64,000 nucleotides of DNA, taken from assembly GCA_039704465.1 (NCBI GenBank), contig JASFAU010000020.1, positions 558,001 through 622,000 on the forward strand. The letters run 5' to 3'. The position numbers and the translations under genes were made by a program. This stretch comes from Plasmodiophora brassicae (Eukaryota; Endomyxa; Phytomyxea; Plasmodiophorida; Plasmodiophoridae). Positions 3,912-49,557 of the stretch are shown here, in pieces. How positions within the stretch are numbered: the first letter of the stretch is position 1; each line of letters opens with the position of its first letter. Below the pieces are notes generated by a model. The model was not told the DNA's origin and ran no database searches. It saw only the letters and a list, made by a program, of their open reading frames with translations.

Positions 3912-4119
3912 TTGATCAATCCAATATGTACCTATCATCAATTACGACGAGCATAGGCAGGATGGCATATGCTTAATTGGCGTGCGGTGACCCGTTTTAT
4001 TAATGTCATAACCGAAAACTGAACAGATGTCGCAATGGACGACCTCTGCACGCAACTAGACGGCGATGTAATTGCACAGAAAATACCCAACTCGCCATTC
4101 TTAGTATTAAGGATTCTGA

Positions 4120-5685: not shown

Positions 5686-5893
5686 CGCCGACCCGTACGT
5701 GGGACGTCGTGCTGAACGTCCATAGATGCTCTGTCACTGCATGAACCTGTCTACTGGCGGATCGTTTCGCCAACGCCACGACAGGGGCTACTAATACGAC
5801 GTCAGCACGGATGCGCTGGGACGCTCGACACAAATATCTAGCGCGCGAGGGACGGCGCCCAACCCGGTCCTCACACCCTGCTCATGATATCGT

Positions 5894-25700: not shown

Positions 25701-28543
25701 CGAGCGACGCGTTGCGCAGGTCGACGACGATCGGCATCGCCTTCTGGAAGGCGATCACCGCCGATTTGAAGATCGGCACGACCGGGTTGCCCTCCAGCAT
25801 GCGGGATGCCTTCATCGCCGTCTTCAGGAAGCGCTTCAGCTCGTCGGCGATGGCGTCGACGTCGACGTCGGCGAACTTCCGCTGCTTCCACGTGTCGGTC
25901 TTGGCGCGCCAGTCGGCCATCGCCTTGAACAGGTCGACCTTGACGTCCATGTCCTGGCGGACGGCGTCCATCTGCTCGAACTGGGTGATCTCGACCTCGA
26001 GCACCTCCTGGTAGTACTGGTACTTCCTCGACAGGGCTTCCAGGCGCGTCAGCTCGGCGTTCTGCGCCTCGACGAACCTGAGGACGTCGTCGACGGACGC
26101 CATCGGGTCGGACAGGCACGGGTCGTTCAGCCGGTCCTCGACCTTGGCGACGTTCTTGACCAGGATCGGGATTTCCGTCTGCAACTCCTTCGAGAACCGC
26201 GAGATGTTGTCCTCGATGGAAGCCTCGGCCAGCTGGACCGTCGTCTTCAGCGTCTGCCTCGTCTGCGCCAGCTTGTCGAAGATGGCGCCGTCGCCGTCCG
26301 GCACGCGAATCGCGTGCTCCTCGATCAGGCCGTACATCGCCAGGATCGCCTGGAACTCGTCGTCCAGCACGTCGGCGTGCTCGTTCGCCCGCGTCAGGTG
26401 CGCCATGAAGGCGACGAAGTCGTCGACCGAGTCCGGGATCTTGCTGATGTCCGCGTGGTACGCCCGCAGCGTCTCCAGCAGCTGCGCCGACTTGTCCCTG
26501 GCCAGCACCGGCAGCACGTTCTGCACGTCCGCCAGGCGCGCCTCGGGCGCCGGCAGCAGCACCTTCTTCAGGTTCTCCGACTCCACCCGAATGATGCCGA
26601 CCTCGCTGCGCAACGCGAACCGTCAGCCGCTTCCGCGTGGCGCCACGCCCCGCACCGACCTGCTCAGGGGCATCGCCTGGAACGACGCGATCTGCCCGGT
26701 GAACGTGTCGATGAGGTCGGCGAACGCCTGGACCTGGGCGTCCTTGAACGCCTGCAGGTCGAGCTGCGGTTCGAGGTAGATCTTCAGGAACGGGTCCAGC
26801 GTGCGCGTGAACTCGCGCGCGCCCTGGAACGCCACCGCCATCGCCGTCTGGATCCCGTTCAACGACGCCTGGAAGTCGCGGTCGGACGCCACGATCGACT
26901 GCAACGCGTTCTCGTCGTCGGCGTCCTCCCCGGCGCCTCCGTTATCGTCGGCATGCGTCTGCGTGTACTGCTGCAGGTCGTGCTCGTTGATCAAACGCGC
27001 CGAGTTCATGGCCACCTACAGCGCTGCGGTTTCAATCCCTCGCTGTCTCTCCAGCGGCACCAACCGCGGCGCGTGCACACCTTGACGGCCTCGGCGACAG
27101 TGGTTTGCAATGCGGATTGAAACTCAGCTAACGACGGCTTGAACGTGAACTGGTCGCCGTCGACGAGGACCTCGACGGAGAAGATCGGTTCGGGTTTCGA
27201 GGCGCCAACACCGGCGCCCAGCGCATCGGCGGCGGCGTCGTCCGGCGCCCGGTCGCCCTCGTCCCCAGTGGACATCGCGTTGTCCGGATGGACGTCCTGC
27301 AGCGCGTCCCACAGCTGCTTCGTACAGTGCTTCGACAGCGTCACGAGCGTGTCGATCAGGAAGTAGTCGGCCAGCTTGATGAACTTGGTCAGCTTCCGGC
27401 ATTCCGACCGGATCGCGGCACGCTCCGCGTGCGATATCTAAACAATCAGCGACGCCGTGCCACCACAGGTGCTCTGGACGAACCTTGACGGTCGCGTCGA
27501 TCGCCTCGTGGTGCGCTTCGCCGCCGTGCGCCTGGCGGAACCCGTTCTGGATCAGGAACTCGTTCAGGTCTTGGTCGCAGGCGGTGGCGACGGTGTGGTG
27601 CGCCGAATCATGCAACGTCTGCAATTGCTGGCGCACCGCCTCCAGGCGCTTCGCCTGGTTCGCGGCGAACTCTGGCAGCGCCACCGTCGTCCACCGATCC
27701 ACCTAACGCGACGCGTCAGGCATCGCAACGGTCAAGGACGCCGCGCTGGCCCGACGTGGAATAGGTCCAGGCTGGACACCTCGACGAGCGTCTCGCGGAG
27801 CCTCAGCAGGGGGTCCCGAAGGTGGTCGTTCAGGATGAGGAGGTTGTCGACGAGGACGCCCTGGCACTTGGCGGTCTTCGTGCTGCGGATGTGCTTCTTC
27901 CAGTAGAAGAACGCCTTCCACATGCGGAACTGGGCAAAGAACCGGATCCGCATGATCCGGCTGAACAGGAAGTACTCGCGCTCCCATTGACCTTTGGCGC
28001 GTGCCCACTGTCTGTTAGTCGTACGAGCAGCCGCGTCCATCGGTGACCCTCACCGAGGTGGTCAAACGTGGTCTCGCCATGGAAGAAATGTGTGATGCCC
28101 GACCGGGACATGGTGTAGTACTCGTCGGGGTTGATCTGTGTGTGGTCGACGACCTGCAGGTCGTAGGGCCCCCGGGCGGTTAAATACACGAACCGATCCG
28201 TGTTCGGGTTGGCGATCACTTCGTCGATGAACGCGAACGGCGACGTCGCTTCCGGGGCCGGCCGCTGTGCCTTCCTGCCGGGTCCCGCCCTCTCCTTGTC
28301 GTTCCCTTTCGCTTGAGCGGATCGTTGCTGCTGATTCGTCTGCCCTACGGAGGGGGTCCCGACTTCGCCGAATCGTTTCAGGGCCGGGGCAGGCGGCGGC
28401 GATGCGGCTCTGGGCGAGCGCCCCGATTGCGCATGTTGCTCGCGCCTGGCCGCCTTGATGGGAGGGATCCCGATCGGGGACGGCCCGCCTTGACGCACGA
28501 GGCGCGCTCGCAGGGAACGCTGCAACGCCTGGCTGTCGTCCAT
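13708..28543 (-). CDS. Axonemal dynein heavy chain, inner-arm (DNAH6-like) type
   Basis: One multi-exon gene of roughly 30 exons and about 4,400 residues, from Met at 28543 to TAA at 13708-13710. The first intron is clear (27992-28053, joining FDHLG to QWEREYF). The N-terminal tail contains WEREYFLF and [10 protein letters not shown], best matched by DNAH6-like chains. The motor has four P-loops: AAA1 GPAGTGKTE (about 23920), AAA2 GPTGSAKSE (about 22905), AAA3 GVTGVGKS (about 21350) and AAA4 GVGGSGKQS (about 20170). AAA1 Walker B is CLDEFNRID (about 23720). The coiled-coil stalk with microtubule-binding tip lies at about 18300-19300. The C-terminal domain has [10 protein letters not shown] and ends [14 protein letters not shown]. 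It drives microtubule sliding in cilia and is ATP-dependent through AAA1. No break was seen. Subfamily assignment is by motif resemblance only. Confidence 0.9.
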
Positions 28544-28886
28544 AACGACCAGGCTCTGGCGCCCGCACCTTGTGTAAGGACCAGCCAGGGAAGAGTCCCC
28601 GCCCACACCACCCACATGGGCTACACCGATGCCAGTCACACAGGATACCTTCGTCATTTCGCGACCCGGAAGACGTCGCCGGCCTGCAACCCGCGCGCGG
28701 CTATTGTTGGATTCGGAGGTTCGGGCCCCCCTTTTTCTTGCACGTCCTGCTGTTCCGACCCGATTGTTGTTCGTGCGCGTGACTTGTCCATCGGTGGGCA
28801 CCGTGTCCAGGATGGCAGAGGGTATTGGCCGCAAGGTCCTGATGATCAACCGCAACCGTCCTGGTTCGTCCCCCTGCAGATTGCCG
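28544..28886. promoter_or_regulatory. Divergent intergenic region between dynein and the LRR gene
   Basis: About 340 bp separate the start codons of the dynein (-) and LRR (+) genes, so both promoters must lie here or in 5' leaders. Alternative upstream Met codons for the LRR gene exist (for example 28813), but the signal peptide begins cleanly at 28887. I see no defined promoter motif. Confidence 0.4.
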
Positions 28887-30743
28887 ATGTCGTTGCGGGT
28901 GTCAGTGCTGCTGATGCCCATTGTGCTGTGCGTGCTTCTGCCGCACGACGCCGTTGCCGACAGCGTCGACTGCTCCCCTGAGCTAGTGTACAACTGATGT
29001 CCAGCATCCTGCTTTATGAAAATATTTAAGTGCCCGTGTCCAGCGATCTGCGTAGCAACGATCTCACACATCTCACCGCCGATATGTTCGCTCGGGTCAC
29101 GAACGCGGCCCTCTTGTGGGTGCCAATTCGTTCGTCTGCCGCCGTCAACTGAAGCGCCGTCCAAGATTCTTGCAGGACAACCGGGTCACGTCGATCGAAA
29201 GGGGCGCGTTCCACGCCCTGTCGAGGCTGGCCGTCCTGTATCAGCCAGATCGTCGCCGTGTCCAGCGCACCAGCTGTTCACCTTTCATGTGCGCATAGGT
29301 CGTTGGCTGGCAACGCTATCGGGTCCATCAAACAGGGCGTGTTTGACGGAATGTCGTCGTTGACCTACTTGTATGCATATTCCGCTGCTGCGGCAAGTCG
29401 TCTTAATGTCGTCCCGGTGCGATCAACCGCCCCTGCAGATCGCTGGAACGCAACCGCGTCACATTCGTTCAGAGCGGGGCCTTCAATGGGACGTCATCGC
29501 TCACTGAGCTGTGTGTACTACTGCTGATGAATGCGCAATGAATTCCTTTTGTCGTTGACTCTGTTTCAGACACTTGTCACACAACGACATCGAGTTCGTC
29601 CACAAAGGCTCGTTCCTAGGCATGCCATCACTGGCGCTATTGTATTGTTTGCATTGTTCGGCGACCTGCCTCTGTATTGTGAACTAAACCATATTGTGCG
29701 CACAGATGGCTAGACGATAATCTCATTATGGATATTCAAGGCGGGACTTTTCAAGCATTGCCATCCCTTTCTGTACTGTAAGCGCGGCGTTTACCAGCGT
29801 CATGCGGTTTCTCATTGCATGTAGGTCGTTGATTGACAACCGCCTCGGTGCGGTGAAGAAGGGCATGTTCAATGGAATATCCACCCTGGCGTTCCTGTGT
29901 GTGCAATCATCTTTGTTCCGAGAGCAGACGGGCCACCCCGGTTTAACCTCTATGTATCGTGCACAGATGGTTAAACCAAAACCGTATCGCCGACGTTGAG
30001 AACGGCGCTCTCGATGCGATGGGATCGCTAACGGAGCTGTACGTGTGATCGAGCTGACGTCTCGCCCACGTTCCAAACGCGGGGGACCAACTGCGTTCTG
30101 TATAGACGGCTGTCCGACAACCTCATCGGAAGGATTCGGAGAGGCATGTTCTGCAGGATAACATCTTTGCTAACACTGCACGTGAACCTGTTGAACGCAT
30201 CACACACCCGTACCCTGGTGACATGCGTCGTGCACAGATGGATGGACCATAATTGCGTTTCGATTGTTGAGCAAGGAGCGTTCGATCGCCTGTCGTCGTT
30301 ACGAGAGCTGTATGCCTTGACTTGAGGTGCGCATTCGAATGCGAACAGCTGATGAACTTCGTGTACAGGGAGCTGTCTAACAACTATATCGATACGGTCG
30401 AGACTGGTGTATTTAACGGGTTATCGTCACTGGCCTTCTTGTAGGCTTTATGCGCTCTGTGATATAAGTACTGACAAACACGATATTGTATACAGGCGTT
30501 TGGCCAACAACCACATCACGTATATTGAGAAAGCGGCGTTCGACGGCATGTCGTCGCTGGGCACCTTGTGCGAGACACTCATGTTCAATCCTATTGAAGT
30601 CCACTGTTGACCATGTGTGTGCTGTCATGTGTGTTCGCAGGGTGCTTACAGGGAACCCGATATGCTATTGGCTGCATTGGTCGTACCCGGGTATAGCGGA
30701 GGCCTTATGGGGACTGCCGAATCGAACCCAGGTTATATGCTGA
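28887..30743 (+). CDS. Secreted leucine-rich-repeat protein with one repeat per 72-nt exon
   Basis: Fourteen exons give 355 residues. Exon 1 (28887-28987) encodes a signal peptide (SVLLMPIVLCVLLPHDAVA). Twelve exons of exactly 72 nt follow, starting at 29044, 29166, 29299, 29439, 29570, 29706, 29825, 29967, 30106, 30238, 30369 and 30496. Each encodes one 24-residue LRR of the pattern LxxNxIxxIxxGxFxGxxSLxxL, and every junction is in phase 2 inside the final Leu codon. The last exon (30641-30743) gives a capping segment with NPICYW and ends in Cys. Introns are about 50-75 nt. Intron 10 starts GC instead of GT (30178). There is no membrane segment, so a secreted binding protein is likely. The repeats resemble those of the receptor immediately downstream. 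Confidence 0.85.
30178..30237 (+). other. GC-AG intron in the LRR gene
   Basis: The intron between the tenth and eleventh exons of the LRR gene begins GCACGT where its siblings begin GTACGT, GTATGC or similar, and ends GTGCACAG. Both flanking exons are exactly 72 nt and keep frame only with this boundary, which supports a non-canonical GC donor rather than a misread junction. Confidence 0.65.
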
Positions 30744-31043: not shown

Positions 31044-34000
31044 ATGCCGACGTCGCGGATCAGGCCTGCGTCGGCGTCGTGCGCGGCGTGGCTAATCGGC
31101 TCCTGGACGGTTATTGTTCTGTGGAGCGTGGCGCACGCGTCGAACCTGTGCACCTGGTACGGGAAGGGATGCGCCGGTTCCGTCACTCTGTATGGTGACC
31201 TGCCCAATGCATCTTCTTCGTCGGTTAATGTGCATGCAGCGATGTGTCGCCATTGACAAATCTCACCGGCGCGATCAACTCGACCTGGTTTTCGACTTTG
31301 CCAAACGTTGGCAACATTCAATTCTTGTACGGCCACGTCACGGTTGCAGAGCAACGCGCGCTCACAGTACTAATATGCATTGCAGAAGTATCCATCACAA
31401 CCCCGGCATCACTTCCATCACGACGGGTGCTTTCGACTCGATGCCGTTGCTTCAGATAATGTATATCAGGGCCCGCGCGAGAGAGCGCTGCCGAGTGTGA
31501 CCGAATCGATCGTGTGCCCAACAGAAACGTCGGCTCGGACTCGATCACAACAGTCCAGATCGGTGTGTTCAATACGTTAACATCATTGCAGCAACTGTCT
31601 GCCAGATTACGTATGCCGCTCTGTGCCACCGCTGCGTCTGACGCGTTCTGGGCCGCAGGATTATCTCTGGCAACAAGATCACGCAAGCGATAGCGACCGG
31701 CGCACTGCCCGTGTCATTGCAGAGCCTGTCGGTGATTGCACGTTGTGGCAGCCACACCGAACCGGTCGACACCCACTGACCCGCTCGTACAGGGTCGTCT
31801 CGAACAACCAAATACCGTCGATCACGGCCGGGTCCCTCGACGCGCTAACGGCGTTGACTCAGCTGTGAGGAAATGTCGAGGCACAGTACTGGGTTTGGCT
31901 CTGGCTAATTGACGTACTGGCGCCTCCTACAGGTGGTTTAGCGCCAACTCCTTACAGACCGTGCCTTCGAACGCGTTCAGGTACTTAACGGGCCTGACGC
32001 AACTGGACCTGGGTGGCAACGTCATTACGGGGCTTCCACTGGGCGTCTTCGACACACTGACAAGGCTCCAGACTCTGTATGCTACCTCCACGACGTGATT
32101 TGGGGCGAAGCGTCGGCTGAGGCTCCCCGCCCAGGTATATCTGGAACAACAAGTTGACGTCGTTGAACGCGAACCTTTTCGCAATGCTGACACGGCTGAC
32201 ATCGCTGTATGGAATACGGCGCTTGGGTCGTGGCCATATGGAACTGATCATGTGGGCGTATTTGCTAATTAGTGGTATCAACCAGAATCCGTCCATTGCG
32301 TCGCTGGACCTGTATTTGTTCCAGAACTTGACCTCGTATTCTACGTCAGGCAACCTGTACCAAGCGATAAGACGGTTCCGGTGCACAGTCTTGACCTTGC
32401 GGATAGGGATCTCAACTGGCAGATGACCGCGCTGACATGCGTTCCGCTGCCGCCACCGGTGAACTTCACCAAAGGAGGTGGCTCATACGCTGTCGGCAGT
32501 CGACCATACTGCCCTGCACCAACACCTGCACCAACACCAAGTCCCAGACCGTCAACACGGAAACCAACTATTAAGCCCAGCACAAGGCGACCTACTACCA
32601 AGCGACCTACCACGAGACGACCTACCACGGGACGACCTACTACGAGACGACCGACCACGAGGCGGCCTACTACAAAGCGATCTACTACAAGACGACCTAC
32701 TACGAAACGGCCTACTACGAGGCGGCCTACCTCAGGTCGACCTACCACGAGACGACCTACCACGATACGTCTTACTACGAGAGGTCCAACTACGAGACGA
32801 CCTACGACGAGGCGTCCAACTACGCGGCAACCCACTTCGAGGCGGCACACTACGAGGCGACCTACCACGAGACGACCCACCACGAGACGATCTACCACAA
32901 AACGTCCAACCACGATGCGACCTACCACGAGGCGTCCAACTACGAGGCGACCCACTTCGAGGAGGCCCACTACGAGGCGACCCACTACAAGACGACCCAC
33001 TGCGAATCGAATTACTACGAGGCGACCTACCTCAAGACGACCTACTACGAAAAGACCTACCACGAGACGACCTACCACCAGGCCATCTACTTCAAGGCGG
33101 CCTACTACAGGACGAGGTCCAACTACAAGACCACCGACTACGCAGCGATCCACTTCAAGGCGACCTACTTCAAGGCGACCTACTTCAAGATGGCCTACTA
33201 CAAAACCTACCGCAGGATCACCTTCTACGAGACGACCTACTACGAGACGACCAACCACGGGACGACCTACTACGTGGCGACCTACCACGAGACGGCCTAC
33301 GACGAGGCGTGCGACTACGAGACGACCTACCACAAGACGACCTACTACGAGCCGGTCTGCCACGCGGCAACCTACTATGAGACGACCTACTACGGAACGA
33401 CCTACCACGAGACGACCTTCCACGAGTCGACCATCCACAAGACGACCATACGCAAAGCGCTCAAGCACAAGGCACCCTACCACACGACAACCAAGCACAA
33501 TACGATCGACGACAAGGCCGCCCGCGACAACGCATCCAGCAACCTCGAGACGACTCACGTCAGTAAATCATCCAGCAAGCAGGCGTCCAAGTACCGCACG
33601 GCGACAGGGTCCGACCACCAGACGGTCCACCAGGCCGACGACAAAGCACCTGGCAGCGACACATCAGACGCCAAGCCACTCGACGACGTCAAGACATCCG
33701 AGTACATCAAGACGCCCGACGACAGTAGGAGGGCAAACAACAACGAGACGCCCAACGGGAGGTAAGATCAACATGACGACTATCGGCGGAACGGGGAAGC
33801 CTAATACGAGCAGCAGCCCGACTAACACGTGCCTCGACTCGTGTAACCGGCCGGGGCGTCTCGCCGGTGACAAGTTCGCCATTCTGGGTTCGCCTACAAG
33901 AGCCCCCGCTGCTGGATCCTGCCCAGCCCCTGGCGCTGTATGCCAGGATCCCGCCAGCCGCCGTCGACCGGCGCCTGGTGACAACGTCATGGCACTGTGA

Positions 34001-37000
34001 CACCCTGGACCTGTCGACCGCGTCCGGGAACGCGTTAACCCCACCGGTGAACACGCTGGCGCTCGTGCTGGCCCCGAACGTACTGCGGTACTCCACCACG
34101 TACCGGTTCACAGTCACTGCCGGCTTTCCAGGCGGCGTGACGACGACCGCTTCCATCATTCTCACCGTCCCAGCGGTACCCACAGGCGGCACGGTCAACG
34201 TGTCCTGGGCAGGCGCCGCCCAGGAGCTATCGACCATGTTCAAAGTCAGCACCTGGGGATGGCACGCCGATTCCCGTCTGTCGTACGCGTTCTCGTACAT
34301 GATCGTGGGAGACCCGTCCGGCGCCGAGTACGGTATCGTGGCGGCGGGTGACCCGACATCGCCCTCGGTGATGACGACGTTGCCTGCGGGGAACTCGGCC
34401 GGCGTTCGGCTGCTCGTTCGTGCCATCGCGTCCGGGTCGCGCGTTCGCTCGTCGCCCGCCTGGGTCGATGTTGTCGTTCAGCGGGCGCAGCCTGAAACCG
34501 TGCTGGCCAGCGTTGCTGCCAGTGCGACCTGGGCTGGGGATCCGCCCCGGGTCGCATTGAACCGCCTGCAGACGGCCACGCTGGCCCTGAATGCTCTGGC
34601 CAACGCATCAACGCCCAGCCCGACGTCGTCGTCACCCGTCGTCGTCGCGGCACGGTCCACACTGATATCGGCGCTGGTCGCAACGTGGTCGAACGCGACG
34701 AGCGTTGACGACGCTGCCATCCTGCTTGGGGCGCTGACCGCCCAGCCTCATCAGCTGTCGCCCAATACGACCCAGCAAGTCCTGTCGTTCGCCCGAACGC
34801 TGCTCGAGGAATCATTATCGGGCACAACGACGCCGACCTCATCATCATCGCTGACGTTCCTGGGGCTGACCGCCCTAGCTCAATCGGTATCGTCAGCGAT
34901 GACCGCCTCCGACCTGATGAACACCACAACGTCGCCTGTACGATCGGTAATGGCGCCCGCGCGTACCGTCGTCGACATGATTGCCATGGCGCAGGTCGCG
35001 ACAGTGTCCCCATGCCAACCCGCGTCCACGATCGCTACGCCCAACTTCGTGTCTCAGGCCTGGGCGCTGGACGGCCTCGATCACGTGAGCGGCACCTGCG
35101 ATACGACGGGCGCCGCACGCCCTTCTGCATCCGTCGTGCTTCCGTCCGACTTCTGGTCGGCGATGAACATCAGCGGCGGCGTGGGCGTACAGATGACGAC
35201 GTGGGCGGGAGACCCGCAGGCATCGGCGATGGTGAACCCGGCATCCCCTGTTGTCACCGTCCGCGCCTACAACCTGCTGCTGAACGCAGCAGGGACGATG
35301 TCATCGCCCGACCCGATCCATGTACACAACCTGTCGCCCGCGTCCCCTGTCCAGGTCGCGTTGGTACCCACGACCCGGTGGCGTCCGGGCATCGACGTAT
35401 CGGGAACACCCTCGTGTCGTGCGGCCAATGCCACCCGTCCCGTTTGCGTCACGTTCGACAGCGTGTACCAGAACTGGACCACAGCGGGATGCGCGACGAT
35501 CCTGTCCAGCAACGCCACATCGGTGACGTGTGCCTGTACACACCTGACAGACTTCGCGCTGGTCATGTACATGGAGCAGGTGCAACCAGCACCTGGATGT
35601 GGTGCGTCGACGTGGATCTCTGCTCAGCAAGCACTGGAGGCGGTCATCAGCGACGCCAACGCCGTCCATCGCGTGTTCCTGGGGCTGTACCTAGCGACAG
35701 GAAGCGTGTCTGTTGCGTTTGCCGCCCTGGCACGACGGCATGTCACCAAGGTGCACGCTCGACGTTCCGTATTCGTCTTGCTGTCGCTCTCCGTCACGGT
35801 CTGCCTGGTTCGTTCAGCGATCTGCGCTGTGAACCTGGCTTTCCCCGCCGCCATTGTCCCGGTCGCCGTTCTGTCCGTCCTGCCGTCCATGTGCGAGTTC
35901 TTCCTTCTGACGTACTTCATTCTGATGATCTGGTCGGTCGGCGACCGCATGAAGAGGATGTCGACGGGCGCACCCACGAATGTGCTGACTGGCGTCGTGG
36001 GGCCATACGTTGTCGGCAACTTGACGATATCGCTTGGCGTGCCCGCGCTGGTCATTTGTGGTGTCGCTGTGACTTCCACAGACAGCGTCGTCGTTCGGAC
36101 GGTTCCTCTGTACCTGATTCTGTTCGACGTCGCCGCCGCTCTGGTCGCCGCCGCCTGCCTTCTTTGCGGGTCCTACTTTCTGTACACCAGCCGTTCCATG
36201 CGGAACACGTTGGCGGAGGCGGCCGTTTCCATCGGGAACCATCAGCAGGGACACGCTCAGTCGTACAGGCGCGTCGGTCGGTTTGTGTTCATCACGTGCA
36301 CCCTGTTCTCGGCTGCCCTGTGCGTCGAGAGCGTGCTGTGGCTGCTGTCCATCATCGTCCCGCAGGCATACATGGCCGGGTTCCTCGGATTCTACGCCCT
36401 CTTCCTGTCCTGCGACCTGCTCTGCGTCCTACTCGTCGTCGCGTTCTGCCGCAGGACTGTGTCGACAGCGGCACAGGCCAATGCTGGCGCCGGCACGACG
36501 ATAGTGGGGAAAACCCAGCGGAAACCCGGAAGCCTGATCGGGCAATGGTCGGAAAAGAAACTCTCCGGAAAGGCGAATCAAACGCTGCCGCACCTGCCCA
36601 AACAGAGTTCAGCGGCAATCGCGGTCGCTCTGGGTGCAGCAACGACTATGGAATTCGTACCTGTAGTTGCCAACTCCAGGCTTCATAACATTCAGGCGTC
36701 GGCTGATGTCGATGCCGGAAATGGGCGACAGACCGAGCACGTCAAGTATGAAGCCGAGGCGGTCGAGGAGATCCTGGGGTGGACATGGGAGCGGGCCGTA
36801 TCCGGGAAGGACGCACTGCTGGCTAAGAACCGGCCTGATGCTGTTCGGCCTCATCGAGAACCGCAACCTGAGGACTATCTTGCTAGGACTGGCCCAGACC
36901 GTCTTCACCATCGGCAACTGTCGTTGGCGCCGGAGTCATCGTCTGGAGTTCAGGGGCCGTCTGCACGCGACATGGCACCGCAGGTGACACTACAGATGGC

Positions 37001-37106
37001 GCCAGGCTGCGCGCCCCTGGACAACAGGAACACGCAGGCACAACCTGCCCGGCGGATCGACGCTGTCGTGGGCGATCGCTCACCCGACGCCGAGGCTCAC
37101 AATTAA
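31044..37106 (+). CDS. LRR-mucin stalk-REJ-GPS-7TM receptor
   Basis: Eleven exons: 31044-31219, 31240-31326, 31386-31460, 31525-31596, 31659-31727, 31793-31864, 31933-32076, 32135-32206, 32273-32335, 32389-33761 and 33811-37106. They sum to 1,832 residues in frame. In order: signal peptide (SWTVIVLWSVAHA), about nine LRRs (residues about 60-275), a Thr-Arg-Pro hexapeptide stalk (about 300-730), and a REJ-like region (about 740-960, with GWH and LPAGNSAG). A GAIN-like segment follows, then a GPS motif CACTHLTDF with cleavage expected at HL/T (about 1311). Seven helices (about 1345-1611) include LPSMCEFFLLTYFILMIW, then a 220-residue cytoplasmic tail. REJ and GPS modules occur together in polycystin-1; GPS and 7TM occur in adhesion GPCRs. 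Role inferred: surface sensing or adhesion. The 49-nt intron at 33762-33810 is the least certain. Confidence 0.85.
32541..33480 (+). repeat. Thr-Arg-Pro hexapeptide stalk repeat (LRR receptor)
   Basis: An 18-bp unit, roughly ACNACNAGGCGNCCNACY, is repeated with few indels for about 940 bp. It codes for tandem TTRRPT-type hexapeptides. Such basic Thr/Pro-rich sequence is expected to be an extended, O-glycosylated stalk separating the binding head from the membrane-proximal part. The unit has no stop in several frames, so long spurious frames appear on both strands. Confidence 0.9.
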
Positions 37107-37457: not shown

Positions 37458-40400
37458 ATGCCGACCCATATCGCCTTCTGGAATGTTGTCCTCGTAACGC
37501 TTGCTGGCAGCGCTTGGGGACTAGCCGCAGGGTACACGGCAGGCAGCGTGTCGACGTACGCCGGCATCTGCCAGACGAGCGCCGGGTACCGCGACGGAGC
37601 CGCATCGACCGCCATGTTCAATTCGCCACGGGGCGTCGCCGTCGACTCCAGCGGCAACCTGTTCGTGGCCGACTCGAGCAACCACAGAATCCGGAAGGTG
37701 GCCCCGAACGGCACCGTCTCGACGTTCGCCGGCTCTGGCAACGCGGCATTCGCCGACGGGCAGGCGACCTCGGCCAGCTTCAACACGCCGGCCCAGCTGG
37801 TCGTCGACTCCAGCGACAACATCTACGTTATGGATTCGTACAACCATGCGATCCGGAAGATCACGCCGTCAGGTACCGTCACGACGTTAGGTGCGAGTAC
37901 TCGCCCGGTCATCATTTCGAGCGCGGCGGCCACTCATCGGACATGTTAACGTTCAGCTGGGAAAGGCGGCACCTCGGGATACGTCGATGCAACCGGGTCG
38001 TCGGCCTATTTCAACCAACCGTATGGCGGGTGCATCGACGCCAGCGGCAACCTGTTCGTCACCGAGGTGCAGAACAACCGGATCCGCAAAGTCACGCCGG
38101 GCGGCGTCGTGACGACCGTCGCCGGGAGCGGCAGTGCTGCGTTCTCTGATGGGACGGGCACGGCCGCCAGCTTCAACGGCCCGACTGGAATTGCGATCGA
38201 CGCCAGCGGGACGCTGTACGTCGCCGACCAGAGCAACCACCGGATCCGCATGGTTCGTTTCGTCAGCGCGTCCGCCGTCGTGACAACGATCGCCGGGACG
38301 GGGAGCGGCGGGTTCCTCGACGGGTCGCCGTCGCTCGCCCTGTTCAACAACCCGTCCGGGCTGGCCATCGACGCGTCCGGCAACCTGTTCCTGACCGACA
38401 GGCTCAACTATCGCCTGCGCATGCTGCAGGCGGCGTCGTCGTGGTACGTGTCGACCTGGGCGGGCACGGCATCGTCTGGCTATCAGAACGGGGCGCCCAC
38501 GTCCGCGACGCTGAACCAGCCCACCGCCGTTGCCCTGAATGGGAACAGCTCGATCTACGTTGCGGACAGCAGGTAGAACACAGTGTGCGAAGCGGAACGC
38601 CTGGCTGACGTCGTTGTCGCTCAGCAATCATTGCGTTCGCAAGGTCCAGATCGTCACACAGGCGGTACCGGCAGCGGGAACCGTGAGCACGTACGCGGGG
38701 ACGGGCTCGTCGTCCTACCAGGACGGGGCAGCGTCGACGGCCACGTTCAACACGCCGCGGGGCGTGGCCCTCGACGCATCCGGCAACGTGTACGTGGCCG
38801 ATTCGGCCAACCATCGCATACGAAAGATAACGCCGGGCGGGACCGTGTCGACGTGGGCGGGGAGCGGCTCGGCTGCGTTCGCGAACGGGCAAGGCACGAG
38901 CGCCAGCTTCAACACGCCGGCGCAGGTCGTCGTGGACGCCAGCGACAACGTCTACGTCGTCGACCTGTACAATCATGCTGTACGCGTGATCACGCCGTCG
39001 GGCGCCGTCTCGACGCTGGCGGGCGCCGGGGGCACCTCCGGGTACGCGGACGGAACCGGCACGGGCGCCAGGTTCAACCAGCCGAGCGCCGCCTGCATCG
39101 ACAGGAACGGGAACATTTACGTCACCGAATGGGGCAACCATCGCGTACGAAAGGTGACGCCGGCGGGCGTCGTGACCACCGTCAGTTCTGGGCCTGTCGT
39201 TCATGTGGGCTGAACCGGTGTGGTGACTGTGACGTCGATCAGGTGGCGGGAAGTGGCCAGGCCGCGTTCGCCGACGGCACGTTCAACGCGGCGAGCTTCA
39301 GTTCGCCCGGTGGCGTCGCCTGTGGGTCCGACGGCACCCTGTACGTTGCCGATCAGAACAACCATCGGATCCGCATGGTGACGCCGACGGGCGTCGTGAC
39401 CACGATCGCGGGGACCGGGGCGGCCGGGTTCCTCGACGGGTACCCGCTGAGCGCCAGGTTCAACCTGCCGACGAGCATGGCGGTGGACGGCAGCGGGAAC
39501 CTGTTCGTCTCCGATTCCTCCAACTATCGAATCAGGGTGCTGCGGGCGCCCACCTGGTACGTGACGACGTGGGCGGGCGGCGGGTCCCCCACGATGCAGG
39601 ACGGGGCGCCGGCGTCGGCCGGCCTAAACGGCGCGCTGGGCCTCGTCTTCAACGGGACCACGAACCTTCTGCTTGCCGACCAGTAGTACGTTATCGGCGT
39701 CTGCGGCGTGCAACGACGACGCCCCATTGACACGCGTCTGTCCAGCAACCACCGCATCCGCTCCATTGTGTCGGTGCAGGGCGAGGTACCATCGGCGGCT
39801 GTCGCCCAGACGTCGTCGTCCCTGTCGTGGTGGCCGTATGCCCCAAGTACGGTCTCGACGTACGCTGGGACGTGCACGTCGTCCGGGTACCAGGACGGGG
39901 CAGCAACGTCGGCAGCGCGGTTCAGCAACCCACGTGGCATGGCGTTCGACTCCAAGGGCAACCTGTACGTGGCCGACTCGGGCAACCACCGCGTTCGAAA
40001 GGTGACGCCCGGCGGGACGGTGTCCACGTTCGCGGGCAACGGGTCGGCGATGTTCGCGGACGGGCCAGGGACGTCAGCCTGCCTGAACACCCCCAGCCAG
40101 GTCGTTGTCGACCACGCCGCCGACGACACCGTCTACGTCATCGATCGGTACAACCACGCCATCAGGAAGATCGGCCCGTCGGGCGTCGTGTCCACCCTGG
40201 CCGGCCAGGGCAACGTATCGGGGTACGTCGACGGCACGTCCGCCTACTTCAACCAGCCGTACGCCGGCTGCATCGGGGCCGACGGCAGCATCTACGTCAC
40301 CGAGTTCGCCGGGCATCGCGTGCGCCGGGTGACGCGCGCCGGCGTCGTCACGACCGTTGCTGGGAGCGGGATCGCCGGGTACGTCGACGACCTGGGCACC

Positions 40401-43400
40401 GCTGCCCAATTCAGCAGCCCGGCTGGCATCACCATCGATGCCACCGGCGCGACCCTGTACGTCGCCGACCAGGGCAACCATCGCATTCGCGCCATCTCGA
40501 CGTCGACCGGGCTGGTGACGACGATCGCTGGGAACGGGATCCAGGGGTTCCTCGACGGCCCCGGCCTGCAGGCGCGATTCAATTCGCCCGACCTGCTGGC
40601 GCTGGACGCGTCCGGCAACCTGTACGTCGCCGGCAACCTGGACCAGCGCGTGCGCGTCCTGCAGGCGTCGTCGTCGTGGTACGTAACGACCTGGGCGGGG
40701 ACGTCGACGTCCGGGTTCCAGGACGGCGCGCCCTTGTCGTCCACCTGGAACCGACCCGTCGGCATTGCCCTGAACGGGACCGACGCCGTCTTCGTCGGCG
40801 ATTATCTGTACGTGGGTGGCACATTGCGCACCGTCGCCTACTCGGGGTTCCCTGATCCGATGGCCGGCCAGCAACCACTGCGTCCGCAAGATCACGATAA
40901 CGTCACCGTCGTCGACGACGATCGAGCCCGGCCCGATATCGACCTACTCGGGGATCGGCACGGCGGCGTTCCAGGACGGGTCGGGCGACAACGCGGCGTT
41001 CAACGCGCCCCGGGGCCTGGCCTTCGACTCGTCCGGGAACCTGTTCGTCTCCGACTCGTACAACCAGCGGATCCGGAAAATCGCCCCGAACGGGACCGTG
41101 ACGACGTTCGCGGGCACCGGCTCGGGCGGGTTCGTCGACGGGCAGGGCACCGGCGCCAGCTTCAACACGCCGGCGCAGATCGTCGTCGACGCGAGCGACA
41201 ACCTCTACGTCATGGACTGGTACAACCACGCCGTGCGGAAGATCACGCCGTCGGGCGTGGTGTCGACGTTGGCGGGCGCCTATGGCGGTTCCGGGTACGC
41301 CGACGGCACCGGCAGGAACGCTCTGTTCAACCAGCCGTACGCGGCCTGCATCGACGGCAGCGGGAACATTTACCTCACCGAGTGGGGCAATAACCGCATC
41401 CGGAAGGTGACGTCGGCTGGCGTGGTCACCACCGTAAGTTGGTGCCCTGCATCACGCTGTCGTCGATCGTGCTGACAGGTGGGCGTTCTGTCTGCAGGTT
41501 GCAGGAAGCGGGAGCGCCGCGTTCGCCGACGGGGTGGGCACGGCCGCCAGTTTCAACGCGCCCGGTGGCATCGCCGTCGACCCCAGCAGCGGCACGCTGT
41601 ACGTCGCCGACCAGTACAACCATCGCATCCGGATGATAACGACGGCGGGCGTGGTCACGACGATCAGCGGGACGGGGACGGGCGCGTTCCTCGACGGGGC
41701 GGCCGCGACGGCCGCGTTCAACCTGCCGACGCACCTGACCATGGACCGCCTCGGGAACTTGTTCGTGTCCGACAGATCGAACTATCGTATTCGCATGCTG
41801 CAGGCGTCGACCTGGTACGTCACGACGTGGGCGGGCTATGGCAGTTCGACGTTCCAGGATGGAGCGCCGACGTCGGCCGGCATGAACGAAGCGCTGGGAC
41901 TTTGCACGAGCGGCACCAGCCTATTCTTCGTCGACCAATAGTACGTGGCACCCACCTGGCCGTCCCATGTCTCGTGCCCCACTAAACGGACCGATGAACG
42001 TCAGCAATAATCGCGTTCGTCAAATGCAGGTCATTCAAGCGCCGACCTCAACCAAGACGACGCGACATGCCACAAGGCGACCAACCACGAGGCGCCGGAC
42101 GACGTCGAGGCGACCATCGACACGGAGGCCGACGACACGACGACCCACCACAAGGCATCCAACGACAAGGCGTCCCACTACGAGACGTCGGACCAGTAGA
42201 CGACCAACAACGGGACGTCCGACAACGAAGCGTCCGACAACGCGGCATCCAACCACGAGACGGCCCACAACAAGGCGCCCAACTACGAGGCGACCTACTA
42301 CAAGAGGTCGGACCACTCGACGACCAACAACCGGACGGCCGACAACGAGGCGTCCTACAACGCGACATCCAACCACGAGACGGCCCACCACAAGGCACCC
42401 AACCACCAGGCGTCCCACTACGAGACGTCGGACCAGTAGACGACCAACAACGGGACGCCCGACAACGAAGCGTCCGACAACGCGGCATCCAACCACGAGA
42501 CGACCCACAACAAGGCGCCCAACTACGAGGCGACCTACTACGAGAGGTCGGACCACTCGACGACCAACAACCGGACGGCCGACTACGAAGCTTCCTACAA
42601 CGCGACATCCAACCACGAGACGGCCCACCACAAGACGACCCACGACAAGACGAACCACGTCAAGACGTCCAACTACAAGGCGTCGTACTACGAGACGTCC
42701 GACCACAAGAGGGCCAACAACACGTCATCCGACGACGAAACACCGGACCACTAGACGACCAACAACCGGACGCCCGGCCACGAGACGTCCGACAACGCGT
42801 TATCCAACCACAAGACGACGCACAACAAGGCACCCAACGACAAGGCGCCCCACTACAAGACGTCGGACCAATGGACGACCAACAACCGGTCGGCCGACTA
42901 CGAAGCGTCCTACAACGCGACATCCAACCACGAGACGGCCTACGACAAGGCGCCCAACTACGACGCGACCTACTGCGAGACTTGCGACCACAAAAGGGCC
43001 AACAACAGGCCGGCCGACGACACGTCATCCGACGACGAAACACCACACCGCGAGGCATTCCAGTACGGAACACCCGACTACGAGGCGCCGCACGACAAAG
43101 CGCCAGAGTACCAGGCGCCGCTCATCGAGACGTGTCACAACCAGGCAATCTCCCACGGGTCATCCCACGACGCGACATCCGACAGCCGGACGCCCGATAA
43201 CGACACACCCAACAACGCGACAACCGACAACGGAGCACCTAGCAACACGACACCCAACAAGTCGTCCGACAACAACGAGGCACGCGACAACGAAACGGCG
43301 AACAATTACGAGACGCCCTACAAGCAGAAAGACGTCGACAGCAATGAGCGTATCCACGAGACGGCCAACCACGAGACAGCGTTCGACTTATCACCGGCGG

Positions 43401-46400
43401 TCAGCAACGAAACGCCAGACAACGGGGACGCACATAGGCTCTACGAGACGCCTCACCACGAAGCGACTTACATTGGACAGGACAACGACAAAACGACGTG
43501 CGACGTCAAGGCGAACAGCAACGTCAAGGCGGCCGACAGCCAGACAGGCGCCCATGACCCAAACCCACAGACGCACGACGACGACGTCTCGCAAGACGAC
43601 CATCAGGAAACAGTCCACACGGGTACCCCATCGCACGACAACGAACAAGGCATCACCATCGCATTCGGTGAGGCCGATAAGCACGAGGAACGTGCCCAGC
43701 GACCCAACCACGCCGTCACATGCCACCAGAACGTCCAGGCCACGAGGGACGCAGCAAGCGACGACGACATCGTACAGAGCGGTCGACAGGAGCCCAGCTG
43801 GCCGTCCGACAACAACAACCGCACCGGCGACGTCCCCGTTCTGGGTTCGTCTGCAATCGCCGTCGGCGATGAACCCTGCCGCCTCCCTGGTGCTGTACGC
43901 GACGATCCCATCCGGCATCGATCGTCGCCTGCTGACAACGACGTGGTCCTGCGACACGCTGGACGTGTCGATCGCGTCCGGTAACGTGCTGACGCCGCCA
44001 ACGAACACGCTGACGCTCGTCCTGGCACCGAACACCCTGCGGTACGCGACGACGTACCGGTTCACGATCACGGTCACCGTCCCAGGCAGTCGTAGCATGA
44101 CGGCAACGGCCTCGACGACGTGGACGATCGCAGCGGTGCCGACCGGGGGCACCCTGAACGTCACCTGGGCGGGTACCGCCACCGAGCTGTCGACCGTGTT
44201 CAACGTCAGCACCGGGGGATGGGATAACCCCGGCGACCCCGGCCGCCTGACGTACGCGTTCTCGTACATGTTCGTCGGGGACGCATACTCCAGCGCCGAG
44301 TACGCCATCGTGGCGACCGACCCGACGTCAACGTCGGTGCGGACGACGTTGCCGGCGGGGAGCCCCGTCAGGGTCCTCGCTCGGGCCATCGTCGCCGGAT
44401 GCGGTGTTCGTTCCGCCCCGACCTGGACGGATGTCGTCGTGCATCGCGGCACGTCGACTGGGGCGGTGCTGACGGGCGTGATCGCCTCTGCAACGAGCGT
44501 CGACGCGCCGGTACAAGTCACGATGAACCGCCTGCAAACGGCCACGCTGGTCCTGAACGCGCTGGCCAACTCAACGACGAATCAGAGCTCGTCGACGACG
44601 CTCGTCGTTGCCGCGCGATCAGCGCTCATCTCTGCGTTCGTTTCCACGTGCTCGAACACGACGTCTGCTGTCAGCGCCGACGATCTCGCCGCCCTGCTTG
44701 GGACGCTGACCGCCCAACCGCACCAGCTGTCAGCCAACGCCACGCGTCAGGTGCTGACCTTCGCCAGCAGGCTGGTCCAGCAATCGTTGCTGTCGACGTC
44801 TGGGGAGACGAGCGCATCCTCCACATCGTTGACGATGCAGGGGCTGACGGCCCTGGCCGGGTCGGTCTCGTCAGCGATCACCGCCGGTCGCCTGCAGAAC
44901 GCGTCGTCACTCTCTGCCGCCCCACTCCACCACGCCGTCGTCGATCTGATCGCCTCGGCGCAAGTCGCCAGGGTGCCACCGTGTCAGCCGGTCGCGACGA
45001 TCGCCACGAGCAACTTCGTGTCCGAGGCCTGGGCCCTGGATGGCCTGGCCCACGCGAACGGTACCTGCAACGTCGCTCAACGAGCGCCCGTCGTTCTCCC
45101 TGCCGATTTCTGGTCGGCCACGAACACGAGCGGCAACGTCGGCGTGCAGGTCACGTCGTGGGCCAGCAACCCCCAGACGACGCCCTTGGTGGACGCCGCA
45201 TCGCCGGTCACGACCGTTCGGGCGTATCGCGTCGACCAGGTGCCGGGCGTGTCGCCACCCGAGCCCATCACTGTGCGCAACCTGTCATCAGCGTCGCCAA
45301 TCAACGTGACGTTGCAGCAGACGTCGGGCGCCCAGCCCGGTCGTCGCCCTGCCTGCGTCACGTTCAACACCGTTCAGCAGAACTGGACCACGTCCGGCTG
45401 CGCGACGGTTCCCACGTCGTCGTCGTCGGGCGATAACGTGTCGATCACGTGCGCCTGCACCCACCTGACCGATTTCGCCCTGGTCACATACATGGAACAA
45501 CAGCAGCAGCAACCCGATCCTGGATGCGGGGCCACGTCCTGCAGTACCGCTGCCGACCGAAGGGCCCTGGAAGTCGTGCTCAGTGACGCGAACGCCATCC
45601 ATCGCGCGTTCCTGGGCCTGTACCTGACGACCGCCTTCGTTGCCATTGTGCTCATCGTCCGGGCCAGGTACCACGTCACGAAAGTTCACGCCCGCCGGTC
45701 CGTGTACGTTCTGCTCTGCCTCTCCATCGTGGTCTGTGCGGTTCGCGCCGCGATCTGCGCTGTGCACCTGGCGCCCGACACGGCCGTCATCACGCTCGCC
45801 GTTCTGTCCGTCCTGCCGTCCATGTGCGAGTTCTTCCTGCTGTCCTACTTCATCCTGATGCTGTGGTCGATCGGCGACCGCATGAAGAGGATGTCGACGA
45901 ACGCGCCGTCGGGTGTGCTCAGCGGGTTCGCCAGGCCGTACGCCGTCGGGAACGTGTTGATCGCGGTCGGCGTCCCGTTTCTCGTCGTTGGCGGCGCTGC
46001 TCTGCGTCCAGCACAAACGGTGGTTTTCGGCACGACCCCATTGTACATGGCCATGTTCGATGCGGCTTCCGTTCTGGTCGCCGCCGTCTGCCTCCTGTGC
46101 GGGTGCTACTTCCTGTACACGAGTCGGTCCATGCTGAAGACGTTGGTGGACGCTGCCGTTTCCATCGGACGGCATCAGCAGGGGCACGCCCAGTCGTACA
46201 GGAACGTCGGGCGATTCGTCTTCACCGTCTGCGCGCTGTTCTCCGCCTGCCTGTGCGCGGAGAGCGTCCTCTGGCTGATGTCGATCGTCGCCCCGCACAC
46301 CTACATGGCCGGGTTCTCCGGGTTCTACTCCCTGTTCCTCGCCTGCGACCTGCTCTGCATTCTCCTGGTGGCCTCCTTCTGCTACAGGACCGTGTCGACG

Positions 46401-47096
46401 GCCGCGCAGGCCAGCTCGGGCGCCGCCGCCAACCGTTCCACCGTTGTCGACGTCGCAGCGACTCGGAAGCGATGGTACCTCGGCGCGACGTCGCAGTCGA
46501 CATCGCAGAAAGCCTTGAAGAGCGGTCGCGATCCAAAGACGAATGGCCTGGCGCCGTCGCATCGTCCAAAGCAGAGTTCCGCGTCGATAACCATCGCGCT
46601 TGGTACGGCATCGTCGGGCGAATTCGCCCCTATTGCTGTCGAAGCGAGGCATCGCAACGGTTCAGCCAGCAAGATCGGGTCCCTGGCGCCCGACACGTTT
46701 ACCCTTGAGGCCGACGTGGCGGAGAGCATCCTGGAATCCTCATGGGAACATGTCGTTCGGCGCGTTCGGCGGTCACCGAATCCGCCATGCGCGGCGGCGG
46801 CCCCTGACGGGCGTCCTCAACAAGAATCGGATTTCGTCAAGCACCTGGTTAGAACGGTCAGGGAGCGCGTCCAGCATCAGCAACTGTGGCTGGCGAACCC
46901 GACGATCGGTCGCGATCCGCAGCAGGTCGTGCGCGATGTGACAGCGCAGCTGATGTTGCAGATGGCCCCAGAGCGCACATCGCTGGACAACATCCACAAC
47001 CAGGCCCAGCTTGTACAGAGGATCGATGCGATTATCCGCGAACTGGTCGCATGCAACCCGGCCGAATCGGAACAATGTGCTGAATATAGGTCATAA
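37458..47096 (+). CDS. NHL-mucin stalk-REJ-GPS-7TM giant receptor
   Basis: Eight exons: 37458-37890, 37957-38572, 38625-39180, 39243-39685, 39746-40807, 40872-41433, 41498-41940 and 42005-47096. They sum to 3,068 residues in frame. A signal peptide (FWNVVLVTLAGSAWGLAA) leads into 24 NHL repeats of the form YVADSxNHRIRKVTPxG...VSTxAGxG, arranged as four modules of six blades (residues about 33-1380). A Thr-Arg-Pro stalk follows (about 1380-1970), then a REJ-like region (about 1980-2200, SPFWVRLQ...WSCDTLD...LPAGSPV), a GAIN-like segment, GPS CACTHLTDF (cut expected at HL/T, about 2524), seven helices (about 2567-2834) and a tail sharing motifs with the LRR receptor. The likely role is surface ligand or carbohydrate sensing or adhesion; the ligand is unknown. 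The last exon alone covers everything from stalk to tail. Confidence 0.87.
37540..42040 (+). repeat. Four tandem six-blade NHL beta-propeller modules
   Basis: Module coding lengths are near-equal: exons 1+2 (1,049 nt including the signal peptide), 3+4 (999 nt), 5 (1,062 nt) and 6+7 (1,005 nt). Blade n of one module resembles blade n of the others more than its neighbours. For example, blade 2 always has SFNTPAQ or LNTPSQ, blade 3 has FNQPYxxCID, blade 5 has GFLDG and LxVLQA, and blade 6 starts WYVTTWAG. This shows duplication of whole propellers. Module ends fall at phase-2 introns inside NxRxR blades. Confidence 0.85.
42060..43620 (+). repeat. Thr-Arg-Pro stalk repeat with 240-bp higher-order period
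   Basis: The same TTRRPT-type hexapeptide array as in the LRR receptor, but longer and organised in larger blocks. Landmark strings recur exactly 240 bp apart: GACGTCGGACCAGTAGACG near 42185 and 42425, and GGACCACTCGACGACC near 42308 and 42548. Later blocks (to about 43000) are less regular, and from about 43050 the unit decays into a general Thr/Arg/Ser-rich stretch. Confidence 0.9.
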
Positions 47097-47829: not shown

Positions 47830-49557
47830 CTAGCTGACGGCTTCGACGCGGTTGAAGACGGCCGATGTGAGCTTGTGGTCGCCGGAATCGGCATCGATGC
47901 CCCAGATGGACACGCCTTTCAGGCCCAGCGAGAACGCGTAATCGATCTTGGCGACCAACGTCTTCGCATCATCATACGCGACAAACCTATATACCATCGT
48001 CAGTCAACCGCGATCACGCCTCGCAGCGTCGACAGCGCCGAATCGTACTGGTCGGCGTCGTAGGTGAAGTATTCGCACTGCTGGACGGTGTCCAGCTGGA
48101 CGACCGGCTGCTTCTTCGAAACGATGTCGTGGATCTCGAAGTAGGCCAGGTACCCGGGCTGTCTGGTGCACCCGGCGTTCGCCTCCTTCTGCGCGCCTGT
48201 ATACGCGGGAGCATTCATCGCGGGCCCTGCGGCGCCGACACAGTTTCAGGATCAGTTGCCCCGATAGACGGGCCGTCCCCGCCGACCTGCTTGACCGGTC
48301 GGGACAGGCGTCTTCAGCGCGTAGGCGATGCCCCAGAACGACAGGCCCAGGTTGAACTTGCCGGGACCGTGCCCGGTGGAATTCGCCTGATCCAGGAAAT
48401 ACGCAATGGCAGCCGCCTGGGAATCGCCGTTCTTGTCCGCGTTGTGCAGAGCGGCGGAGCACCCCGTGTAGGGCTGCCATGTCCCCAGTACCTGCAGGGG
48501 GCGCCACCGTCATACGAATGATACGCATCGTCGGGCAGCAGTGCCCTGAACCGACGTTGTATCCCAGGATGTTGATCCAGTCGACGTAGGCGACCATCTC
48601 GGGCACCCGATAGTTCTTGCCCCAGCCAGGGCCACCCGGAACAATGGTGGACAGGACCAGGCGCGATTGCCCATCGGACAGCACCTCGCTGTCGATCGCC
48701 TCGCGCATGGCCCTCATCAATGCGGCGAACGATTCGGGATCGTTGGTGCTCCCTCCACGCGACGTGTCCCCGGGGAACTCCCAATCGAAATCTGGGGACG
48801 CAGGGCATCAGCAAACATCCTGGGACCCTTCACCCGACGAGCAACGTACCCAGGCCGTCGAATCCGTACCTGCGCGCGAACTCCACCGTTGCCTTGGCGA
48901 ACGTCTGGCGGCGAGAGGCGTCAGCAGACATCTGCGACATTGGCGCCACGCTCTGTCGACAATACGAGACTTCATCAGACATTGGTTCAGGCGCCGTCGA
49001 CGGCCAGCGCGATTACAGGGATGTCGCCACCAACGGACAGCATGGTGGTCAGCAACGGGTGCGACCTCTTCAGCGCGTTGAACGCCCTGTAGTTGTTCGC
49101 CTCCGCCTCGCTGGGGTCCTCGAGCACCCAGGTCGTCAGGCTGACCGGCGGCGAGAACGAGTAGATCAGGTGCGTGTACAGGTGGGCCTGGACCGTCTCG
49201 GGGGTCAGCTGGGGCACCGACGTGCAGTTCCCCGAGCTGATCGTCTGGCGCGCACAGCCCCTGTGAGCACACACGCGACGCGGATGGCGCGTTCGCGATC
49301 CTTACTGGGTAGTAGTACCCGATCATGCGGTTGTCGGTCGCGAACTTGGTCGGGTAGGCGGCACCTGCCCCACCCGCGGGCGCCGACGGGCGCGCGCCGA
49401 ACGCCGCGCCAATCTGCTTGGCGTACGCGGCGCACAACGCGATCGCCACAATGACGATGACGAAGGCGGCCGCGGCGCCGTGCGTCGCGCAGCGCTGACG
49501 GCGACGCTCGCGAAGGTACTCGTCGACGCCGCCGCTGAAATCGTCGTGCTGCAGCAT
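47830..49557 (-). CDS. Membrane-anchored GH18 chitinase-like glycosidase
   Basis: Seven exons, read from 49557 down: 49306-49557, 49017-49244, 48850-48952, 48556-48791, 48296-48491 (end uncertain by 9 nt), 48049-48226 and 47830-47986. They give about 449 residues. A cytoplasmic lead is followed by one helix (AAAFVIVIVAIALCAAYA), making a type II membrane protein. The GH18 barrel then follows: IGYYYP (strand 1), THLIYSF, TTMLSVGG, the catalytic DGLDFDWE (split by an intron before the second Asp; proton-donor Glu present), GYN, LSFWGIAYAL, and the closing VAYDDAKTLVAKIDYAF and GVSIWGID. Expected reaction: hydrolysis of beta-1,4-N-acetylglucosamine polymers outside the cell, as in bacterial prey walls or its own chitin. 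The active site looks intact. Confidence 0.9.

Follow-up and report, generated by a model that had tools for sequence, protein, structure and literature searches.

The question raised by a 64,000-nucleotide stretch of the genome of Plasmodiophora brassicae (contig JASFAU010000020.1, positions 558,001 to 622,000 of assembly GCA_039704465.1, here called the window) is whether a long series of NHL repeats and the seven-transmembrane (7TM) region that follows it on the forward strand are parts of one receptor gene and, if they are, what kind of receptor it encodes. A sequence-only reading had proposed one giant receptor in which NHL propellers, a mucin-like stalk, a REJ-like region, a GPS cleavage motif and seven helices are joined, and had considered it a candidate for an undescribed system. 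We find that the region contains a single gene, the NHL receptor gene, which belongs to a family with different heads on a shared REJ-GAIN-GPS-7TM core, and that its product is probably a receptor resembling the adhesion G-protein-coupled receptors (GPCRs), cleaved by itself, activated by a tethered agonist and signalling via G proteins. The source genome (Rhizaria) comprises 25.3 Mb in 21 contigs.

Gene structure

The NHL receptor gene occupies 37458–47096 (+) and consists of eight exons that join in frame to give 3,067 codons and a stop, separated by seven introns that are all GT..AG and 52–66 bp long (Table 1). The start and stop positions and the in-frame joining of the eight exons are as the sequence-only reading had them, though its count of 3,068 residues included the stop codon. 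A dynamic-programming model based on codon usage recovered exons 1–3 and 5–7 exactly, misplaced the two limits of exon 4 (by 18 and 3 bases) and split the stalk by false introns; as this gene and its neighbour had supplied the training data for the codon table, the agreement is no independent test. The open frame containing exon 8 extends over 41886–47096 (+).

A paralogue on a second contig, C18, has the same architecture, with eight exons encoding 2,363 aa followed by a stop. The intron phases are 1,2,0,2,2,0,2 in both genes, and six of the seven introns fall in the same alignment column, the remaining one being off by one. Four joins in the C18 model were placed by hand at canonical sites near the positions found in the window gene and the intron match is therefore partly non-blind, with introns 4, 6 and 7 unchanged from the first codon-usage model.

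The region might instead hold two genes, one for a secreted NHL protein and one for a separate REJ-GPS-7TM receptor, as P0001, the public gene model for the same locus in another assembly, is without the NHL part and some other NHL genes of P. brassicae, such as L031 and L029 (below), carry no GPS. However, the final NHL strand, NNRVRQMQ, is encoded in exon 8, where it shares one stop-free frame with the stalk, the GPS and the 7TM, and this head–core junction is repeated in the C18 gene, the last NHL strand again lying in the exon for the GPS and 7TM. Because this exon is shared in both genes, separate NHL and GPS-7TM genes are very improbable. P0001 begins within the core, is without the head, the stalk and the start of the core, and has as its start methionine what is a Thr codon in the present assembly (compared by eye); hence, the public annotation of the NHL receptor looks truncated. 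The best protein match of the core is a P. brassicae protein that is 98 % identical. A chimera created by assembly was also considered and rejected, as two genes on different contigs have the same layout. A single receptor with NHL head, stalk, GPS and 7TM, as proposed previously, is thus well supported by the C18 layout, the seven introns and the predicted GAIN and GPCR folds described below.

The REJ-GAIN-GPS-7TM core

The core begins after the stalk with a REJ/FN3-like pair of beta domains. The REJ-like region of the sequence-only reading is not seen by Pfam in this protein at E ≤ 1, though five of the eight family cores match REJ (PF02010) at this threshold. Where positions are given, the matches in the family cores cover the C-terminal half of the REJ model. 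The GPS is recognised by Pfam with E = 3e-6 to 7e-6 and includes the HL/T dyad expected from the earlier reading (the slash marks the predicted cut), and the surrounding THLTDFA is identical in all eight family cores. Cleavage at this point would leave 2,525 residues, including the signal peptide, before the cut and a C-terminal fragment of 542 aa, close to the 540 or so residues anticipated.

Seven hydrophobic segments (residues 2573–2829) follow the GPS, and the 7TM part is predicted by AlphaFold to form seven helices with a GPCR fold, in agreement with the earlier claim of a 7TM region. In fold comparisons of the predicted structures, made solely with VIA-align 2, the GPS-bearing domain was matched to the GAIN fold and the 7TM part to the GPCR fold. 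The GPCR rows in the 7TM comparison look, from their names, to be mostly class A, the class that dominates GPCR structures in the PDB. The 7tm_2 domain of class B2 was not detected by Pfam in six family 7TMs at a limit of E ≤ 10, nor in the genome at E ≤ 1 in a search whose controls also gave no match. Placement in class B2 is not established for the NHL receptor because Pfam assigns its 7TM to none of the GPCR families. Sub-threshold Pfam hints, to TOM1/THH1 for the C18 7TM (E 0.022) and to Tmemb_40 for the C2 7TM (E 0.18), were not relied on.

The NHL head and the stalk

The head matches NHL (PF01436) with E = 2e-124, 19 stretches doing so individually at E ≤ 1. A hidden Markov model of a single blade, built from the first six blades (which therefore match by construction), identified 26 stretches made up of 22 full blades (E < 1e-15) and four partial ones, and a shuffled head used as control gave four matches at a loose cut-off of 1. 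Judged from these matches, the partial and full stretches sum to 24 blades, arranged as four sets of six whose closing blades are split, which is the number and grouping given in the earlier reading.

The stalk comprises 596 residues, of which 34 % are Thr, 27 % Arg and 13 % Pro. It is Thr/Pro-rich but strongly basic, with 176 K/R against 5 D/E, which corrects the mucin-like label of the sequence-only reading. The underlying DNA consists of 15-bp units nested in repeats of 60, 120 and 240 bp, and an open frame produced by the repeats alone was considered. This was rejected, as the (R/K)PTTR frame is the sole stop-free frame of six in the stalks of both the NHL gene and the neighbouring LRR (leucine-rich repeat) gene; over 42005–43829 it contains no stops, the other two forward frames contain 4 and 7, and the frames of the minus strand 9, 8 and 29.

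Head and core have diverged to different extents between the NHL receptor and its C18 paralogue. The heads are 68 % identical (929/1,369) and the cores 39 % (351/907), with ratios of nonsynonymous to synonymous divergence (dN/dS) of 0.224/0.579 (~0.39) and 0.684/1.011 (~0.68), respectively. Propellers 1, 3 and 4 each find their own counterpart as the best C18 match (67, 68 and 70 %), and propeller 2 is 67 % identical to its counterpart and 68 % identical to C18 propeller 4. The faster evolution of the core would suit a large surface adhesin that has lost signalling, with the 7TM a mere anchor and the GPS vestigial. Nevertheless, dN in the core is lower than dS, the GPS is invariant in eight of eight cores and every core retains seven (once eight) hydrophobic segments, and we regard a signalling-dead adhesin as highly unlikely.

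Table 1. Features of the NHL receptor gene and of its LRR-headed neighbour (window coordinates)
Feature	Position	Strand	Basis or remark
LRR paralogue: LRR head (several small exons), RPTTR stalk, REJ/GAIN/GPS, 7TM	31044..37106	+	approximate codon-usage model, Pfam GPS
Signal peptide, residues ~1–24	37458..37529	+	hydrophobic segment at residues 5–23; start codon, frame
NHL propeller 1, residues 29–367, exons 1–3	37542..38676	+	Pfam NHL, blade model, propeller limits
Intron 1	37891..37956	+	phase 1; spliced model; position and phase match C18 paralogue
Intron 2	38573..38624	+	phase 2; spliced model, C18 comparison
NHL propeller 2, residues 368–715, exons 3–5	38677..39845	+	Pfam NHL, blade model, propeller limits
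Intron 3	39181..39242	+	phase 0; spliced model, C18 comparison
Intron 4	39683..39745	+	phase 2; alignment column off by one in C18
NHL propeller 3, residues 716–1055, exons 5–6	39846..40929	+	Pfam NHL, blade model, propeller limits
Intron 5	40808..40871	+	phase 2; spliced model, C18 comparison
NHL propeller 4, residues 1056 to ~1382, exons 6–8	40930..42038	+	spliced model, blade model, propeller limits
Intron 6	41434..41497	+	phase 0; spliced model, C18 comparison
Intron 7	41941..42004	+	phase 2; inside last NHL blade
Exon 8	42005..47096	+	last NHL strand, stalk, REJ/FN3-like pair, GAIN/GPS, 7TM, tail, stop
Basic Thr/Arg/Pro stalk, (R/K)PTTR repeats	42045..43829	+	composition, tandem repeats, sole stop-free frame
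REJ/FN3-like pair of beta domains	43830..44447	+	
GAIN domain, helical part A then beta part B	44457..45491	+	
GPS motif, HL/TDFALVTYM, predicted cut before Thr2526 (codon at 45468)	45348..45482	+	Pfam GPS
Seven transmembrane helices, GPCR fold	45549..46427	+	hydrophobic segments, AlphaFold, fold comparison
Cytosolic tail	46428..47093	+	spliced model; after last helix

The receptor family

In the P. brassicae genome, the only rhizarian genome covered by the genome-level searches, a GPS was found at 14 places, and a search with the core identified 11 places at E ≤ 1, including the NHL receptor itself. NHL heads are carried by the window gene and the C18 gene, and LRR heads by the tandem neighbour in the window and by a gene on C12 (= P0003). 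Three genes on C16 have CAP heads (PF00188, E 1e-8 for P0002; E 2e-5 and 3e-5 for the remaining two, in their first exons). In the C2 member (L013/L014), a very long (R/K)PTTR stalk precedes the GPS-7TM core, and this core is strongly diverged, with an end branch of 2.23 in the core tree. Only the core parts of the codon-usage models were used for C17 and C2, as these models and those of the stalks are unreliable, the C17 model starting with an apparently unrelated gene.

When 5.8 billion proteins were searched, with the best 8,000 candidates by shared words scored in each search, the core query matched three of the scored proteins, all from P. brassicae, and a profile of eight core rows matched two of these and one distant unnamed REJ protein (P0004).

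Several other genes contain parts of this architecture. On C4 (L017), a near-complete REJ (E 4e-49), a weak EGF-like match and a GPS lie in one frame, in what is a polycystin-like relative. A gene on the minus strand of C14 (L031, ~3606–6516) combines two NHL exons with a Pro-rich stalk and, by eye, a single hydrophobic segment, and looks to be single-pass, without GPS or 7TM. On C9 (L029, 2741–10000) there are two tandem genes with NHL then CUB (PF00431, E 0.007 in the first and 1e-15 in the second). The NHL genes of C14 and C9 are without a GPS as far as read. A G-alpha-like set accounts for 82 exon-level matches, and in our own grouping 25 places contain one or more rows over the cut-off; some may be related small GTPases. 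On C7, C15, C18 and C20, several neighbouring members are only a few kb apart, and the set is large for a 25-Mb genome.

Histories of heads and cores

In a maximum-likelihood tree of nine cores, one group (support 100/100) unites the window NHL core, the core of its LRR neighbour and the three cores from C16; the branch order inside this group is not resolved, and the C18 NHL core falls outside it. Forcing the two NHL cores together was rejected by the approximately unbiased (AU) test (p 8e-5, or 5e-6 without the long C2 row), and forcing the two LRR cores together was also rejected (p 4e-4). The constrained groups were named after the identities were known, C2, C17 and C18 have long branches, and once C2 is left out the tree does not resolve which of C12 and C18 branches first. 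Under parsimony the head must have changed three times, where two changes would have sufficed had every head type arisen by a single gain. As read from these trees, the heads and cores of the family have different histories.

Exon 8 holds both the end of the head and the core, so intron 7 is not the point of exchange. The (R/K)PTTR repeat sits exactly between the two. Counted in one frame, there are 63 PTTx words for the NHL gene, 45 for its LRR neighbour, 36 for C16c and 169 for C2, and C16b has 79–80 in each of two frames; C12 and C18 have only 1 each and C16a ≤ 5. Head exchange driven by the repeat is thus put forward as a hypothesis with partial support, because three of the eight members are without the repeat.

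Relationship to known receptors

The NHL receptor shares with the adhesion GPCRs (class B2, including ADGRB3/BAI3, the ADGRL latrophilins, ADGRD1 and CD97) a long modular ectodomain, a GAIN/GPS with HL/T, seven helices directly after the GPS and a strand resembling a tethered agonist, a combination known above all in animals. It is unlike them in that its 7TM sequence is not recognised as class B2 and in its rhizarian host, which is distant from animals. The best reading, by analogy, is that it works like an adhesion GPCR, as judged from layout and predicted fold, with membership of class B2 not established from the 7TM sequence. The word NHL does not occur in the main text of the eLife 2025 article on adhesion GPCRs (whose domain table ends in 'etc.') or in the first 300,000 of the 412,533 characters of the Pharmacol Rev 2026 text.

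Polycystin-1, sea-urchin REJ and PKDREJ also combine REJ with GAIN/GPS in the same order, and the NCBI names of P0001–P0003 are PKD/REJ-like. The protein might, then, be a gamete or zoospore recognition protein of the REJ/polycystin type, cut at the GPS and using its 7TM for adhesion or the regulation of an ion channel rather than for G-protein signalling. REJ (PF02010) is present in five of the eight cores and at 13 places in the genome, the NHL receptor core not among them, and the polycystin channel family (PF08016) has nine matches at other loci. A brown-alga gene of male gametes, Ectocarpus Esi0130_0068, from within the SAR group (stramenopiles, alveolates and Rhizaria), is recorded as having REJ and GPS followed by 6–7 helices, and a role in gamete recognition has been suggested for it (PMC4700764). 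However, no PLAT or channel domain was found in the core by Pfam at E ≤ 1, the transmembrane segments number seven and not 11, and the predicted fold of the 7TM is that of a GPCR; the P. brassicae family also differs from these proteins in that REJ, where matched, is the C-terminal half and in its NHL, LRR and CAP heads. A polycystin-type protein is thus unlikely. The brown-algal gene is nonetheless a possible precedent in SAR; that source reports GPS, REJ and a match to the polycystin channel as its extracellular features, with no mention there of an NHL, LRR or CAP head or an RPTTR stalk.

The head closely resembles multi-NHL proteins of bacterial or metagenomic origin and the NHL region of teneurins (TEN_NHL PF25021, E 2.5e-77; listed matches 30–51 % identical). 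Among the best 120 of 4,098 NHL-head relatives that emerged from 8,000 scored candidates, 0.55–1.75 times as long as the NHL receptor, none has a GPS in precomputed Pfam annotation and none is a named P. brassicae protein, most being unnamed. To speak of an undescribed system goes too far, as the receptor is a new version of the adhesion-GPCR or REJ-GPS kind and one member of a family whose common core carries different heads.

Proposed mechanism

Autocleavage and a tethered agonist are proposed because a GAIN domain with an intact HL/T is followed directly by a 7TM with the predicted GPCR fold, by analogy with adhesion GPCRs; both autoproteolysis and tension sensing are inferences. The protein would be expressed and exposed at the cell surface, the four NHL propellers forming a ligand-binding recognition head that is kept off the membrane by the extended basic stalk, which the REJ/FN3-like pair would join to the GAIN domain. 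The GAIN domain would cut itself at HL/T, with the head part staying non-covalently on the 7TM fragment. On binding the host wall, another cell or matrix as its partner, the head would be pulled or shed and expose the buried TDFALVTYM strand, which would act on the 7TM as a tethered agonist and so engage heterotrimeric G proteins with members of the large G-alpha set, in line with the model for adhesion GPCRs (eLife 2025, section 11; PMC12716839). The same core with NHL, LRR and CAP heads would provide one signalling output for several recognition heads. The receptor could be a nutrient or host-wall sensor, or could act in zoospore or gamete recognition.

Neighbouring genes

The core of the tandem LRR neighbour is 60 % identical to that of the NHL receptor, and its LRR head is 40 % identical to the P0003 head over 228 columns. 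After its donor at 33762 come three acceptors that keep the reading frame, with their ends at 33810, 33813 and 33816. Upstream, at ~28860–30700 (+), is a run of LRR-like one-repeat exons, apparently without a GPS-7TM core (by eye). A dynein heavy-chain exon (DHC_N2 PF08393, E 2e-112) lies at 24706–26622 (-), where further exons are probable, and an exon of glycosyl hydrolase family 18 (chitinase-like; PF00704, E 3e-11) at 48004–48807 (-).

Implications

Fusion of GAIN to a 7TM is placed in stem holozoans by a 2025 survey, which has complex heads arising within Holozoa. A rhizarian family with a GAIN domain, an HL/T GPS, a predicted GPCR fold and NHL, LRR and CAP heads would either count against a holozoan origin or show convergence. 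Somewhat short of even confidence, we tentatively propose that this is a GAIN-7TM family outside Holozoa whose heads were transferred from core to core (or whose cores were overwritten under their heads), the (R/K)PTTR stalk, which several members have in common at the DNA level, being the likely place of exchange. The adhesion-GPCR plan would in that case be much older than Holozoa or would have been invented twice, with receptors refitted by way of the repeat. Whether by descent or by convergence, the family would allow the origin of self-cleaving receptors to be tested directly in a non-animal. It also supplies named candidate sensors for the clubroot organism, an important crop parasite for which pure culture is not possible.
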